Positions 1,858 to 20,295 of a DNA stretch of 45,429 nt are shown here, in pieces. The notes beneath the pieces were generated by a model. That model saw only the letters and a list, made by a program, of their open reading frames with translations, searched no databases and was not told the DNA's origin. The position numbers and the translations under genes were made by a program. Source of the DNA: a virus; IMG/VR virus record IMGVR_UViG_3300044608_001918, positions 1 through 45,429 of that record; one strand, given 5' to 3'. Numbering within the stretch: position 1 is the first letter of the stretch; every line of letters starts with the position of its first letter.

Positions 1858-2856
1858 CTATCGAAAAGATGACCAGTTGAAAATGTTGACTGCGGCGCGG
1901 GCGCGACTTGTGAGACGGGCGTTTGAGAGCGTGCCAGAGGTCAGGTCGCTGGCGTTGGTGCTGCCGCTCGTGACCGTCTTCCACGTTTGATCCCCCGCGA
2001 GGAACGTCGTGGAGGTGGCCGAGCCGCTGCCGAGCCGAGCCGTAGCGATGGTGCCGCTGGTGATGTCTGTGGCGCTATGTGTATGAAGTGCGGTCGCTGC
2101 CCCAATGTCGGCCGGCGTCAGTGCGTCGGTGCCGCCTGTCGCGTGGCTGCTCTTGTGCGCCGCCAGGGCGAGCGACCCGCTCGAAGTCGTGAGCCCCGTG
2201 CCGATGGACAGGGCGACCGTCTGCGTGCCAGCGTTGTAGGTGACCGGAGCCGTGGCTGCGACGACGCCTGGATCGCCTTGCGGGCCTGCTGTTCCGGCTG
2301 GGCCGGCTGGCCCCGTGGCCCCGGTGGCCCCGGCAACGCCCTGGATTCCTTGGATGCCTTGCTCGCCGCGCTCGCCTTGCGGCCCGGTGCTCCCAGCCGC
2401 GCCCTTTGCGACCAACAGTTGCCAGTTGTACCCCGGCGGAGCCCCGCCGATCGTCCACCCGCCGGTCGCCGGCAGCCACCACAGGCCGCCGTCAAACGTC
2501 ACCGCGTCGTACAGACCGTAATTGGTGAAGTTATCCCACTCACCGCGATAGTTGTAGGGCATCGGGCCGGTTGCGCCAGCAGCTCCGGCCGGCCCAGGCG
2601 GGCCTTGAGGCCCGACTGTGGATGCAGCAACCCACTGATTCAGATCGCTCGCCAGCCTCCACATACTTTCGTCAGCCGTCACGAACACCAGCATCCCCGC
2701 CTCGCGACGAGGGGCCGGGATCGCGTCCCGCTCGACCAGCGTGGCCACCGTGCGGTAGCCGCCCTTGCCGTAGCGGGCTTCGTGCGACGGGTGAACGTCG
2801 GTCGTGTCGAACGGCACGACGGGGGCGATGACGTTGGTGCCTGGGATCTTCGGCAT
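1858..2856 (-). CDS. Tail fibre with collagen-like Gly-X-Y repeats
   Basis: This is a 332-residue fibre. Two collagen-like stretches (GPQGPPGPAGAAGATGP and a longer GPQGERGEQGIQGIQG-type run) flank a short WWLPATGGW-type carbohydrate-binding-like segment that recurs in phage fibres. The C-terminal third has LTPADIGAA and SGTIATARLG motifs, common in phage tail-fibre shafts (the side-tail-fibre repeat family). The start ATG 2856 overlaps the previous stop as TGATG. A frame-open extension back to 3420 exists but is Arg/Gly-rich shadow over the upstream gene. The protein probably trimerises through the collagen segments. Tail versus head-fibre placement cannot be settled from sequence. Confidence 0.85.
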   Translation of the reverse strand: MPKIPGTNVIAPVVPFDTTDVHPSHEARYGKGGYRTVATLVERDAIPAPRREAGMLVFVTADESMWRLASDLNQWVAASTVGPQGPPGPAGAAGATGPMPYNYRGEWDNFTNYGLYDAVTFDGGLWWLPATGGWTIGGAPPGYNWQLLVAKGAAGSTGPQGERGEQGIQGIQGVAGATGATGPAGPAGTAGPQGDPGVVAATAPVTYNAGTQTVALSIGTGLTTSSGSLALAAHKSSHATGGTDALTPADIGAATALHTHSATDITSGTIATARLGSGSATSTTFLAGDQTWKTVTSGSTNASDLTSGTLSNARLTSRARAAVNIFNWSSFR

Positions 2857-3539
2857 CACGACACCTCCACGAGCGGAGAGCCAGTGATCGGATACGTGCT
2901 GCGATAGATGCGGTAGGACCGGCTGGCCTGGCCCGTAAACGCAATCGAGCGAGTCGTGACCTCCCAGGCGGTCGAACGAAAGCCGTTCACGTCGATGTTG
3001 GCTTCGCCAAACGACGCTGGAACGACCACGTAGACGTAGGCCGCGTTCGCCACGAGCTGCTTCATGGCCGTGCGGTTGGTGGCCATATCGAGCTGGAGCT
3101 GGGCCGCAATCTGCTGGTCGGTGATGGCCGCAGCCGTCGAAACGCCAATCGCCCGCACGAGCAAGGTTTCGTTCGGCACGGCGGTAGAGCCTGCGACGGC
3201 CATCGTGTGAATCCGGCGAATCTTTTCGGATCGGTCGGCCCACCGCCATGCGTTGCGGGAGCCGTCTGGGATCGAAACCTCGTACGTTTTCTCCGCACCG
3301 TTTTCGTCCACCACGATCCGGTCGCCGCGCTTCGGGTCTTGCGGCAGCTCGTCGCGATGAATGAAAAAGTCTCGCGTCTCCATGCGGACAAGGTTGCCGG
3401 CCTTGTCCACTGCTTCCCATCGTCCGGTGACGAGCGTTGCCCTGCAGAACCGTGCGATGCCAACCGAAGGGCGGTATTCGACTTCAACGGCGAGATGCTC
3501 GCGCCGCTGTTCCTCAAACCACGCTTCGGCTTTGGCCAT
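2856..3539 (-). CDS. Virion-module protein of unknown function
   Basis: This is a 227-residue protein. ATG 3539 is preferred, with AGGA just upstream; a TTG at 3569 in the same frame has no better site. The N-terminal half is charged and alternates strands and helices (RFCRATLVTGRW, TRDFFIHRDELP). The C-terminal half has a YVYVVVP strand and ends in SPLVEVS. It shares a stop/start overlap with the collagen-like fibre gene downstream. It follows the cement gene, a position often held by head-completion or fibre-attachment proteins. I do not recognise the family. Its codon use matches the neighbouring structural genes. Confidence 0.65.
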   Translation of the reverse strand: MAKAEAWFEEQRREHLAVEVEYRPSVGIARFCRATLVTGRWEAVDKAGNLVRMETRDFFIHRDELPQDPKRGDRIVVDENGAEKTYEVSIPDGSRNAWRWADRSEKIRRIHTMAVAGSTAVPNETLLVRAIGVSTAAAITDQQIAAQLQLDMATNRTAMKQLVANAAYVYVVVPASFGEANIDVNGFRSTAWEVTTRSIAFTGQASRSYRIYRSTYPITGSPLVEVS

Positions 3540-5900: not shown

Positions 5901-7348
5901 GCTTGCTCCTGCTCCTGGGGCTCATCGCTGGGGGCATCCGGCTGTGCCGGATTCAGGCCGAGCTCTTGCTGCAGGGCGGCCTCGACCGCCCGCTGCCGCA
6001 TGACAACCCGCCAATCGCGGCCGCGCTTGGAACAGACCTCCGAAAGGCTGGCCATGTTGGCCGCCACCATGGCCGCATCCGCATTGGCTTCCTTCAAGGG
6101 GTCGACGTGCTCAAAGCCGTCCCACGTCCACGACCAATTCCACGCCGAAAACGGCGGCAGGCCGCGGGGGATGACGCCGCCAACGTCCACGGCCTCGTCG
6201 AGCCACGACATGAGCAGAGGGTCGAGAAAAACCCGCTCCATGTCGTTCCGCTCGACCGCGATTCGCTTGCGATAGACGAGGTAATCGCCACGCATCGACG
6301 AGTAATTCGCCGAAGACGAATCCATGGCCGCCACGATGTAGGGCATGTCGATGCAGCGGGCGATTTCGTTGAGCATCCGACGCACGAACTGGTCATGCGA
6401 GCTGGTCGGATGCTCCGCCTTCATCTGCACCGGCTCCCATCCCTCGGGAGCCGCCATGGCCATGCCGCGGACGATGGGCAGCGTTTCGCCAAGGTCGATG
6501 CCGCTGGCCGTGCCGCTGGCCGGCATGGTGGTCTTGAAGATGGCCGCGAAATTGGCCGCAGTCTCGGCGGCCGTCACCACGGCGAGCGTGTACCGGCGGA
6601 GCAGGGCGAACAGTTCGAGGGCCGGAGCGATCTCCGGCACGCCGCGATGCTGGCCAGGCCGGGTCGCGTGGAACCAATGGCACACGTAGTCGGCGTCAAC
6701 CCAATCGCCTTCAAGGATGAAGCCGGGCGTCAGGGAGCCGGGGTGATGCTTGGCCACCCAAAACTGGCTGACGTTGCCGTCCTGGTCGAAACGCAGGCCG
6801 TCAACGTCGTTCTCGGTCATAAAGCCGAGCGGCGACATGACCTGGTCGGCCTCGACGAGCTTCACGTCGAGCTGGACGCCGCTGAGCCGGCGGTTGTTCG
6901 TCTTGAGAGCGAACACCTCGCCGTCGCTGATCTTGGCCCCCTTGGCGATCCGCAGTTTGCGGGCCAGGTCGATGTTGACGGACCAATCGTAGACCGCGGT
7001 TTCAATCGCCCGCACGGCATCGGGCGACACGTCAGGCCCAAGGTCGAGCTGGAGCCGCGGGCCGGTGCCGACAAGGTCGTTTGACCACGTGCTCGCGATG
7101 CCGGCCGCGTACGAGTTGTTACGCATTTCGTAACGTGCCCGATTGCGGAGCGTGCGACGAACGTGCGGCAGCAGCGAGGCGTCTGCCGAGTAGTGGTCGG
7201 CGTTGGCCCAATGGTTTTTGTTGAGCTCGGTCGTCTGTGCCGAGTCGTACTTGGCGTGTACCAGCGACGAAATGGCCGTCTTCTGGGCGTCGACGGTCGC
7301 CTGGAGCGACTGCCGGGACGGGCCAAGGATTTTGGAGAGGAGCCCCAT
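5897..7348 (-). CDS. Lambda-type portal protein
   Basis: This 483-residue portal belongs to the lambda gpB family (Phage_portal_2). Typical features are an N-terminal HY(S/A)AD-like segment, RNRARYEMRNNSYAAGI, the DLVGTGPRLQ motif, GEVFAL, HWFHATRPGQHRGVP and SSANYSSMRGDYL near the C-terminus. Twelve copies form the ring at the capsid vertex through which DNA enters and leaves, and where the tail docks. ATG 7348 overlaps the gpW-like stop (TAATG). An upstream in-frame extension to 7393 lies inside the gpW-like gene and was rejected. The C-terminus is Pro/Glu/Gln-rich and probably disordered. Gene order TerL, gpW-like, portal, protease-capsid matches lambda-like heads. Confidence 0.92.
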   Translation of the reverse strand: MGLLSKILGPSRQSLQATVDAQKTAISSLVHAKYDSAQTTELNKNHWANADHYSADASLLPHVRRTLRNRARYEMRNNSYAAGIASTWSNDLVGTGPRLQLDLGPDVSPDAVRAIETAVYDWSVNIDLARKLRIAKGAKISDGEVFALKTNNRRLSGVQLDVKLVEADQVMSPLGFMTENDVDGLRFDQDGNVSQFWVAKHHPGSLTPGFILEGDWVDADYVCHWFHATRPGQHRGVPEIAPALELFALLRRYTLAVVTAAETAANFAAIFKTTMPASGTASGIDLGETLPIVRGMAMAAPEGWEPVQMKAEHPTSSHDQFVRRMLNEIARCIDMPYIVAAMDSSSANYSSMRGDYLVYRKRIAVERNDMERVFLDPLLMSWLDEAVDVGGVIPRGLPPFSAWNWSWTWDGFEHVDPLKEANADAAMVAANMASLSEVCSKRGRDWRVVMRQRAVEAALQQELGLNPAQPDAPSDEPQEQEQA

Positions 7349-11356: not shown

Positions 11357-12229
11357 TTATTCTCCCACGGAAGCTCGTAGTTTTTGGGCCATAGCCCGCT
11401 TGGTCGCCTCAAGCCGGGCCGTGTCGTCGCCATTCCAGCCCTGCGGAGGAGGCCGGTCGTCTGGACGTGCCGCGGACGGCTTCCGGTTGTCGTGAAGCTC
11501 GTCGTACTTGCCCTGCAGCACCTTTTTGACGAACCTCGGCCCGCAGAACTGCGTCAGCGCCACGGGCGTCCGGAAGTATTTGCAGCCCCGTAGGCGGCCG
11601 ATGGCCTCCAAGGCTGCCGGGAGCCATTCGGGGTCGGCAAGAGACTCCACGGCCTCGTCCGGTGGCTCCGGTGGCGTCCAAGGCCGTCGATTGTCAGCCG
11701 GCTTGGCGTTCCATGCCGCCCGCAAGGTTGCCCATCTTGCCGCCTGGTCCCCTTCCGCGCACGCAGGCGGAGGAGGAGGAACTTCTCCTGTCCTCTCCTC
11801 TCCTCTACTGCGCTCGAGCGCAGCCGCGTCCTGCGCTTGAGCGCAGGCAGTGCCGGATCGGCGTTTTCGCCCAGGATCACGCTCATCTTGAGCCTTGGCC
11901 CGGTCTTGGTGCTGGAGTCTCGCCTTGGCCGCCTGGCTGAACCGCCGATCCCACCCAGGGACCGCGACGGTAGCGGCCGTCTCGTCGATTTCCAGCCACC
12001 CGACGGCCACCACGGCTCGCCAGAAGGCGTCATCCCCTCCGCACGTCCTCGTCAGCCGCGGGATCGTCATGCGGGCCGTCCCGTCGGCGCAGTGCATCGA
12101 GGCCCAGCCCCAAAGCTTTCTGAGGCGGTAGGTCACGACCTCGACGGAATGGCCCGTCAGGTCGATGAGCTCTTGCACCTCCGGCTTCTCGTCGAGAGCC
12201 AGGTCTACCGCAATCCATTCACCGGCCAT
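11357..12229 (-). CDS. Replication-initiation-type HTH protein (DnaT/gpO-like)
   Basis: This 290-residue protein starts at ATG 12229, with GGAGG seven bases upstream. The N-terminus (EWIAVDLALDEKPEV, VVTYRLRKLWGWA, RLTRTCGGDDAFWRAVVAVGWLEID) is the winged-helix pattern seen in phage replication proteins of the lambda O / DnaT-like type. A charged, Pro-rich linker follows, then a C-terminal domain (EAIGRLRGCKYFRTPVALTQFC, FVKKVLQGKYDE) like the helicase-loader end of such proteins. It probably binds an origin or loads the host helicase. The long Ala/Gln/Arg linker has a run of Pro (VPPPPPACAEG). It follows the CCNNG array. Confidence 0.7.
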   Translation of the reverse strand: MAGEWIAVDLALDEKPEVQELIDLTGHSVEVVTYRLRKLWGWASMHCADGTARMTIPRLTRTCGGDDAFWRAVVAVGWLEIDETAATVAVPGWDRRFSQAAKARLQHQDRAKAQDERDPGRKRRSGTACAQAQDAAALERSRGEERTGEVPPPPPACAEGDQAARWATLRAAWNAKPADNRRPWTPPEPPDEAVESLADPEWLPAALEAIGRLRGCKYFRTPVALTQFCGPRFVKKVLQGKYDELHDNRKPSAARPDDRPPPQGWNGDDTARLEATKRAMAQKLRASVGE

Positions 12230-12297
12230 AGAAAAACCTCCGTCCAATTTCTCGCCGCGGCGTCGAAGCCGCTTTCGTGCCTATCACGGGCGAGATT

Positions 12298-12432
12298 CCT
12301 TGCCTTGCCATGCAGCGCCGAGCCTCGCCGCGCCATGCCATGCCGCGCCGATCCCCGCCGAGCCAATCCAAGCCACGCCACGCCACTCCTGGCCTGGCCT
12401 TGCCACGCCGAGCCACGCCGAGCCACGCCTAG
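12298..12432. repeat. Degenerate CCNNG pentamer array A (27 units)
   Basis: Twenty-seven units of five bases run in strict phase. All but one begin CC, all but three end G, and the middle bases vary. On the transcribed strand this reads CNNGG. The array begins five bases past the stop of the gene ending at 12438, with CTAGGCGTGG as its first two transcribed units. It matches array B (13251-13370) in unit, phase and first units. No stable frame can encode it because five is not a multiple of three. Confidence 0.85.
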
Positions 12433-12437
12433 AAAAA

Positions 12438-13004
12438 TCAAAGCTCAATCTTGAACTGCTCCACCTCGTACCGCCCAAAGAACGGCCGAAAAGTTCCGAC
12501 GCCGAGCATCCCGCCCATCGTGATTGCCTGCCTAAGATTCTCCAGAGAGCAATGCTTGTTTTCGATGTATTCCAGCGTGAACTGCAGGTTCCAAGGCGTT
12601 GCAACTACAGGCCTGTGCTTTGGGTTAGGAATGCCTCCCTTCACTCGAGCAACAGTCCTGTGCTCGTAGACCTTGTCATTGAATCCATTGAAAACAATAG
12701 GCCCGTTGTCATCGCAAATCGGAATCTCGAATGGAGAAATCGAAACGTAGCTGGCGATTCCAAGCCCGATCGTCTTTCCGTTCTTTCCGAAGAACTGCCG
12801 ACACACGCTCTTGGTGTTCTCCGCACAGAGCATTGAAAACAGATTGACTGCGGGAAGCGTCAAACGCCGTTCTCCGTCGAGGTACATCTTCTCCGCGACA
12901 GGGAGTTGGGTGCTGTTGTCGCCCGCGTACCTGTCGAACATCAAAGGCCGAACTCCGATGAGTTTGCACGCAATCGAAATCGCCGCCGAGGTTGCTGTGG
13001 CCAT
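12438..13004 (-). CDS. Unknown 188-residue phage protein with GxGxFRPxFGRY end
   Basis: The protein starts at ATG 13004 and ends with a motif MLGVGTFRPFFGRYEVEQF that I have seen at the end of a family of phage proteins of unknown role; the Gly-rich tail and beta-alpha alternation recall RRM-like folds. Base composition is visibly less GC-rich than its neighbours, which suggests recent acquisition. It shares 296 bases with the GIY-YIG frame, offset by one. The pair is bounded on both sides by CCNNG arrays. It has no membrane segment. Function is unknown; nucleic-acid binding is a guess. Confidence 0.65.
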   Translation of the reverse strand: MATATSAAISIACKLIGVRPLMFDRYAGDNSTQLPVAEKMYLDGERRLTLPAVNLFSMLCAENTKSVCRQFFGKNGKTIGLGIASYVSISPFEIPICDDNGPIVFNGFNDKVYEHRTVARVKGGIPNPKHRPVVATPWNLQFTLEYIENKHCSLENLRQAITMGGMLGVGTFRPFFGRYEVEQFKIEL

Positions 13005-13254
13005 ATCCTTCTGCCGCTAACGCGGCCTCCTTTACCGTGACTTCAAACCACTCGCCGCGAACGCGGCGAGACGCAAAATGCACATGGAGCGTCTTTTCCA
13101 AAAGACGCTCGTCGTCACACTCAACCTTCGCGAATACGTGCAGTTCGCGATGGTTGCCTGTTTGCAGGCCTCCCTTCCTTTTTCTTGGATCGCACGACAG
13201 GCCAATCTTCACTGGACCTTCACGCGACTCGCCGATGATGTAAACGAAACCCAC
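12709..13254 (-). CDS. GIY-YIG domain protein (T5orf172/Mug113 type)
   Basis: Residues 1-75 match the T5orf172-type GIY-YIG fold: GFVYII, then VKIGLSCDPRKR, LQTGN, LLEKTLHVHFASRRVRGEWFEV. Such proteins are nucleases or DNA-binding modules in phages, sometimes mobile. After about residue 92 the frame runs on through the start of the next gene. That tail looks like shadow sequence, so the functional protein may end earlier by frameshift, or the gene may be frameshifted into the downstream frame. The start is GTG 13254, inside the last unit of array B, whose AAGG-like units could serve as a ribosome site. GC content is lower than in neighbours. Confidence 0.7.
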   Translation of the reverse strand: MGFVYIIGESREGPVKIGLSCDPRKRKGGLQTGNHRELHVFAKVECDDERLLEKTLHVHFASRRVRGEWFEVTVKEAALAAEGYGHSNLGGDFDCVQTHRSSAFDVRQVRGRQQHPTPCRGEDVPRRRTAFDASRSQSVFNALCGEHQERVSAVLRKERKDDRAWNRQLRFDFSIRDSDLR

Positions 13255-13370
13255 GCCTTGCCTTGCCTCGCATTGCCCTGCCTTGCCGAGCCTTGCCGCG
13301 CCTCACCTTGCCTTGCCCGGCCTCGCCGAGCCCTGCCCCGCCGTGCCGCGCCGCGCCCGGCCACGCCTAG
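13251..13370. repeat. Degenerate CCNNG pentamer array B (24 units)
   Basis: Twenty-four pentamers run in perfect phase with no insertions. All but one begin CC and all but one end G. On the transcribed strand the first two units are CTAGG CGTGG, the same as in array A, and the array begins seven bases past the stop of the upstream gene. The last unit overlaps the GTG start of the GIY-YIG gene. Many units read CAAGG on the RNA strand, so they resemble tandem ribosome binding sites. Confidence 0.85.
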
Positions 13371-13377
13371 CAGTGAT

Positions 13378-13692
13378 TTATGTTGCCAACGCAACCCTCC
13401 ACTCCCGCTCCATGCACCCGCTCAATCCTTGAACCTCACGGCCCGTCAGCTCGACCCTGCCAAGCCGCTGCAGCTCGGTGAGCCGCTTGTTGACCTTGTG
13501 CGGCAGCAGGCCGCAGCGGGCTCCAATCTCGCTCTGGCCGGCCGGCCCAAGCCGAAGGGCGGCCACGATCCGCTCGCCATGCGACCGCACGGGGGCGACC
13601 TTGGCGGCAGCGTGCGACGTGGACGGGTCGCGGCGTCTGGCCATCGCGAACAGTGGCAAGGCTTCCGTGCTTGCTGGGTAGTAGTCGCTCAT
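13378..13692 (-). CDS. Winged-helix DNA-binding protein
   Basis: This 104-residue protein starts at ATG 13692 (AGGAG nine bases upstream). It begins with a phage-typical segment RRDPSTSHAAAK and continues into a winged helix: ERIVAALRLGPAGQSEIGARCGLLPHKVNKRLTELQRLGRVELTG. Small proteins of this kind are common in early phage operons, where they may modulate transcription or replication. The extension to 13734 was rejected for lack of a ribosome site. The stop is followed by array B. The DNA target is unknown. Confidence 0.75.
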   Translation of the reverse strand: MSDYYPASTEALPLFAMARRRDPSTSHAAAKVAPVRSHGERIVAALRLGPAGQSEIGARCGLLPHKVNKRLTELQRLGRVELTGREVQGLSGCMEREWRVALAT

Positions 13693-13838
13693 TCCGTGAG
13701 CTCCTGTGTATTGGCCCGCGTGACGTGCGGGCATCCGGTCGAGTCACCCAATCGGAGGCCTGGGCCTCGACTGCCGTGTTTGTCGCCACTTGCGGCTTGG
13801 CGGCGAATGCGGCAGGTGAACGCTGCCGCTACGGCCAT
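13689..13838 (-). CDS. Possible 49-residue ORF
   Basis: An open frame from ATG 13838 ends exactly in an ATGA overlap with the winged-helix start, typical of this genome. The product (AVAAAFTCRIRRQAASG...) is basic and has no recognisable domain. The nearest AGGAG is 15 bases upstream, too far for a strong site, and a competing frame is open in the same DNA. I list it mainly because it would fill an otherwise empty 164-base gap. Confidence 0.25.
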   Translation of the reverse strand: MAVAAAFTCRIRRQAASGDKHGSRGPGLRLGDSTGCPHVTRANTQELTE

Positions 13839-20047: not shown

Positions 20048-20295
20048 AGACGATGGCCGCTCACCTGGCCGGCTGATGGCCGGCCAGGTCTGCTATCGAA
20101 ATACTCGTGAGCTCACGCCCGGCCATCGTGGCCGTTCACCTGGCCGACGTGGCCGGCAGCAACGGCCGACGATGGCCGCTGGTGAGCGGCCATCTCCGGC
20201 CGACGTGGCCGTTCACCTGGCCGACGAGCGGCCGACATGGCCGGGCGTGGCCGCTCGTGACCGGCCATCGAAATACCCCCACAATGGCGACCAAA

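Follow-up and report, generated by a model that had tools for sequence, protein, structure and literature searches.

A probable VIPR locus with a GIY-YIG gene and a tRNA-like array tail in an IMG/VR phage contig

The window, by which we mean the whole 45,429-base stretch of DNA analyzed here, is an IMG/VR contig from an uncultivated tailed phage and encodes terminase, portal, head, tape-measure, and tail-fibre proteins. The locus of interest lies on its minus strand, and it reads in one direction throughout: array, GIY-YIG gene, vipr gene, array, tRNA-like tail. The upstream array (array 2, 13251-13370) is followed by a GIY-YIG gene of the T5orf172/MUG113 kind, a putative accessory gene (12709-13254), and its open frame continues into vipr (12438-13004), a gene for a 188-aa RAMP-type protein predicted to bind guide RNA. 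Next come the downstream array (array 1, 12298-12432) and its tRNA-like 3′ tail (12250-12295). A small HTH gene (phrog_1123, 13378-13734) makes the left border and a replication-initiation gene, rep (phrog_2509, 11357-12229), the right one, both also on the minus strand. The GC content is 53% between the arrays versus 66-67% in the flanking genes, which bears out the lower-GC gene pair of an earlier analysis that used the letters alone (the sequence-only reading). Elsewhere, the window has a 75-bp repeat in two copies with 81% identity (20119-20269).

Array 1 runs from 12432 to 12298 and has 27 CNNGG units, and array 2 runs from 13370 to 13251 and has 24. Each of them keeps a single phase with zero slips, and the middle bases of the units are variable; one-base departures from CNNGG occur in 4 of the 27 units and in 2 of the 24. 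Both arrays open with CTAGG CGTGG, 5 nt after the vipr stop for array 1 and 7 nt after the stop of the upstream gene for array 2, and the last units of arrays of this kind are rich in AAGG. Each array has a segment score of 21, whereas sequences simulated with an order-2 Markov model (60 runs) reach no more than 4.5 and the rest of the window reaches 3; about 4-5 units is the most that chance would produce. On all these points (two in-phase arrays of 27 and 24 pentamers, variable middle bases without phase slips, and a common start 5-7 bases past a stop) we find what the sequence-only reading had described.

To identify the protein, we used two sets of loci. The array-first set consists of the matches listed in an IMG/VR scan for eight in-phase GGCNN units. 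The protein-first set consists of 80 relatives of the window Vipr picked without regard to arrays. The array-linked genes form one family, whose proteins have about 190 residues and a C-terminal loop rich in Gly, and the window gene belongs to it. Among the matches listed, 75 of 102 variable-array loci encode this family, and in 99 of 101 cases in the array-first loci the closest arrays run in the same direction as the gene. The sequence-only reading had raised the case of relatives with the gene pair and no arrays; we observe arrays in 76 of the 80 protein-first loci, with 0 antisense, and two loci scored as array-less (L269 and L271) contain TNNGG-type units that our C-only detector skips.

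A profile of the family that includes the window protein matches PDB 36pp, the "SUSP1 Vipr protein," with an E-value of 2.1e-43, the single convincing solved structure. All 60 family members match phrog_4652, of function unknown; the family has no Pfam entry, and the window protein has no Cas family match in Pfam. The AlphaFold2 model of the window Vipr has a pLDDT of 94.5, and its best Foldseek matches are the Cmr/Csm RAMP subunits of CRISPR type III (E-value 3e-6, TM about 0.6).

VIPR, for Viral Interference Programmable Repeat, is a CRISPR-like targeting system presented in a preprint (bioRxiv 2026.04.26.720920, PMC13142463), which describes a RAMP protein that is directed to DNA by repeat RNAs of the GGY/NN design. 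In that preprint, the guide RNAs (vrRNAs) are 9-16 YNNGG repeats plus a structured tail, and double-stranded DNA is recognized by NN pairs read with one base skipped between them. VIPR is reported there to repress competing phages, and to come in seven types with six accessory genes, vap1-6, with nucleases only in types III and V, the types that are enriched in defence islands (PMC13142463). Thus, the statement in the sequence-only reading that no named element has this design no longer holds, as VIPR has been named since April 2026. A search of the literature for the CCNNG/GGCNN motif found nothing, and the name was reached only via the protein.

The window carries both a Vipr-family RAMP protein and GGY/NN arrays beside its gene, and from these two features we conclude that this is very likely a VIPR locus and that the arrays are its vrRNA genes, with a probability that we put at around 0.94. 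A structured 3′ tail after the repeats is present for array 1 only. With 27 and 24 units the window is outside the published range of repeats per vrRNA. We read this length as a variant feature and no bar to membership, since array architecture varies in the preprint as well, which mentions staggered arrays whose vrRNAs overlap, and hammerhead-interspersed arrays (PMC13142463). The long arrays may produce one long guide or several overlapping guides. Another locus, L007, has a single array of 140 CNNGG units (6313-7012) adjoining vipr, far beyond the published vrRNA length.

As a reference, the VIPR locus of Escherichia phage SUSP1, read by a similar script, displays the same array design. Both loci are phage-borne and have a single small RAMP gene flanked by sense YNNGG arrays, and in both the NN bases are variable and the GGY bases constant. 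They differ in that the second gene is upstream of vipr and overlaps it in the window while it is downstream in SUSP1, in the length of the arrays (24-27 units in the window versus 12-16 in SUSP1), and in the upstream array, which is fused to a start codon in the window alone. The tails are also different, tRNA-like in the window and another fold in SUSP1, a pseudoknot according to PMC13142463, and at the Y position the window units are C-rich whereas SUSP1 uses T. The window Vipr also shares its fold, a Gly-rich loop, and an expected role as guide-RNA scaffold with the Class 1 CRISPR RAMPs (Csm3, Cmr, Cas7), but only at 9-17% identity. Unlike Class 1 CRISPR systems, the window has neither cas genes nor CRISPR repeats or spacers, and its code would be non-contiguous; the array region has no long repeats of the CRISPR-Cas kind.

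Regarding the GIY-YIG gene, its assignment to the T5orf172 type in the sequence-only reading agrees with Pfam (E-value 3e-10 for T5orf172, 4e-12 for MUG113). Ten example GIY-YIG proteins are all above the Pfam cut-offs, and Y5, K16-I17-G18, R26, E53, H57, and the GEWF motif are invariant in 20 of 20. The window protein, like T5orf172/MUG113 nucleases, has the full domain with the conserved Tyr, KIG, Arg, and Glu; it is not free-standing, though, but embedded in a VIPR operon. Its start codon is a GTG at 13254, within the last unit of array 2 (CGTGG), such that the array runs straight into the gene with no space for a non-coding tail. The same layout, with CATGG as the last unit, is found among its nearest kin, in L241, L243, L244, L245, and L247. 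Because the start codon sits in the last unit, the upstream array by all appearances doubles as the leader of the GIY-YIG gene.

The most serious alternative accepts the VIPR locus and takes the GIY-YIG gene as a selfish homing passenger with no accessory role. GIY-YIG enzymes are often free-standing homing endonucleases, and one rep relative (L453) has a GIY-YIG match without vipr. Against it, in 42 of the 80 relatives the gene is directly upstream of vipr and overlaps its 5′ end, with an identical relative frame in 42 out of 42, across Viprs down to about 40% identity. It is placed between array and vipr and breaks neither of them, and on the Vipr tree its presence requires 3 changes versus 24 expected with shuffled labels. 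The overlap itself gives a mixed signal. The same frame is open in vipr genes without GIY-YIG (median of 207 nt, versus 219 nt with it), so that the long overlap is in part a by-product of the vipr sequence, as the passenger explanation would have it; yet 4-fold sites diverge less within the GIY-vipr overlap (0.39 vs. 0.53), which is at most a possible dual-coding region. Overall, we consider the passenger unlikely, and from the conservation of sequence and position we lean towards a working VIPR accessory nuclease.

How the arrays change between relatives bears on what they do. Among relatives with about 90% identical Vipr, zero arrays have the same NN series as those of the window; the GG-C frame, by contrast, is retained. 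Such complete guide turnover beside a nearly constant protein would be as expected for programmable guides. It is difficult to reconcile with the arrays being TRAP-like or autoregulatory protein-binding leaders, by which the RAMP-like protein would regulate how its own operon is translated, DNA targeting playing no part, since a fixed site needs no NN positions that are fully replaced between 90%-identical systems. The presence of arrays immediately on both sides of vipr and in its orientation, the end of array 2 in the GIY-YIG start codon, and the AAGG-rich last units all suit that explanation. Many arrays, however, are distant from start codons or belong to multi-array series, and the SUSP1 Vipr is reported in the preprint to have been demonstrated to bind vrRNA and target DNA (PMC13142463), all of which makes autoregulatory leaders very improbable. 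TRAP-like repeats, as well as two-tetrad G-quadruplexes, were discarded after the RAMP link and the guide turnover.

An ordinary GC-rich microsatellite, produced by slippage near a homing endonuclease (a GIY-YIG mobile intron-type element), would account for the presence of a GIY-YIG gene and for pentamer tracts being common in cellular genomes, but it is almost certainly wrong, because those cellular tracts are mostly near-identical copies and viral arrays have a unit variety of 2.9 bits, identical neighbouring units are not in excess in viral arrays (289 observed vs. 279 expected), and GIY-YIG is absent from about half of the array-bearing vipr loci. Using the same pattern, the median unit entropy is 2.86 bits for viral arrays and 0.96 bits for cellular-genome arrays among the matches listed. 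As the genome-contig scan gave mostly low-variety microsatellites, copies of one unit, arrays alone are not diagnostic in cells. Among the matches listed, the GC content of the phages with such arrays spans 39-76%. In L009, L032, L043, L054, L091, and L105, a variable array is flanked by at least 3 kb on each side and vipr was not detected; these arrays are possible orphan or trans-acting guides.

The sequence-only reading had offered two options for the gene unit with its arrays, a mobile cassette or an unusual 3′-end element. The second does not survive the reading of the arrays as probable vrRNA genes. As for the first, judging from gene order the unit between the HTH gene and rep behaves as an acquired accessory cassette. 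That idea holds because the closest rep relatives lack vipr (it is present in 0 of 80 viral loci whose rep genes are the closest), and because in two loci, L470 and L497, the HTH gene and rep are immediate neighbours, the empty site that the sequence-only reading had proposed to look for. In L515, a 35-unit array (2805-2979) immediately precedes rep, and vipr is absent from the 2.8 kb upstream; it is a possible orphan guide array.

The tail of array 1 has the outline of a tRNA minus the anticodon arm: a 7-bp acceptor-like stem, a D-arm-like hairpin whose loop contains GG, and a T-arm-like hairpin with UUCGA. Its minimum free energy is -24.5 kcal/mol for 12249-12297, with a z-score of -3.26. 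This outline recurs with altered pairs in the tails of L244, L243, and L241, and L243 has an additional hairpin at the anticodon-arm position. For the 16 base pairs all 62 cells are paired and 6 pairs are double-changed, in an alignment of few (4) sequences. Rfam reports nothing relevant for this tail. The tRNA-like domain of tmRNA and minimal RNase P substrates consist of an acceptor stem on a UUCGA T-arm, with GG at the D position and no anticodon arm. The window tail resembles them in each of these respects, and it differs in having no CCA end and no Rfam recognition, and in sitting after a guide-RNA array.

A simpler acceptor-plus-T-arm descriptor, run on distinct array ends, matches after 19 of 422 of them, with 0 matches in the reverse complements and 0 in 2,110 shuffles. 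It also matches 16 sites before arrays, which we take to be mostly the same elements located between successive arrays. Such caps follow arrays in Mycobacterium phage LittleE and Gordonia phage MakoManhole. The window tail, with a 6-base loop and an extra arm, is not among the 19 matches; from their common outline, our reading is that it and the simpler caps are akin. In LittleE, MakoManhole, and Gordonia phage Trine, an acceptor/T-arm-like element that has GTTCGANTCC-type loops comes after several of the arrays. In L444, a Planctomycetota bin with seven arrays beside a Vipr 40% identical to that of the window (2257-3463), a conserved TTTGATCGCATT-like tail, which is of a different type, comes after most of the arrays.

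How could the locus work? By analogy with SUSP1, each array would be transcribed as a guide RNA and covered by Vipr, with one subunit on every pentamer that grips the GGY bases and leaves the two variable ones exposed. The complex would then bind double-stranded DNA as NNxNNxNNx, skipping one base per unit, and competing phages or prophages would be repressed or attacked. In this subtype, the GIY-YIG protein may cut or nick the bound target. Array 2, with AAGG repeats that resemble ribosome-binding sites and a last unit that contains the start codon, would serve as the GIY-YIG leader. A tRNA enzyme, for example RNase P, would recognize the tail of the downstream guide and set the 3′ end of that guide; going by shape, we give the action of RNase P or a relative of it on the tail a little less than even odds. 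The full combination, a nuclease-armed phage VIPR with RNase P-matured tRNA-mimic caps and an array-started GIY-YIG protein cutting an NNx-addressed target, is a tentative proposal that we would bet against as a whole.

Searching for targets of the window guides with five 8-unit seeds against IMG/VR returned unextended background matches only, which is unsurprising if the targets are unsampled. Testing skip rules of 0-3 with 419 arrays against 2.6 Mb of fetched DNA gave no excess for any of them, NNx included.

VIPR has been proposed as a forerunner of CRISPR, with detailed work so far only on the SUSP1 and P. fulva systems. The GIY-YIG subtype is widespread in metagenomic phages, and it pairs a predicted nuclease with a guide operon inside phages, where the preprint ties nucleases to host-defence types (PMC13142463). 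The GIY-YIG/vipr overlap, the array-supplied start codon, tRNA-like tails, and accessory-cassette status were not found in the main text of PMC13142463. The tRNA-like tails provide a testable answer to how vrRNA 3′ ends may form, and they are present in a cultured phage, LittleE, whose host M. smegmatis is a laboratory organism. If the tail does capture tRNA processing, guides would have a further way to mature, distinct from the hammerhead-interspersed arrays of the preprint (PMC13142463).

Concerning occurrence, a search with the window sequence as query, at the sensitivity used, did not find Vipr in 50,697 phage and 72,556 plasmid records, and the family profile, run on genomes of two phyla (398 and 392 genomes), found no GIY-type system. 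VIPR loci with genes annotated as hypothetical proteins are found in LittleE (L439, 1166-2942), MakoManhole (L437), and Trine (L438). One MAG contig (L193) has two different vipr genes about 2 kb apart.
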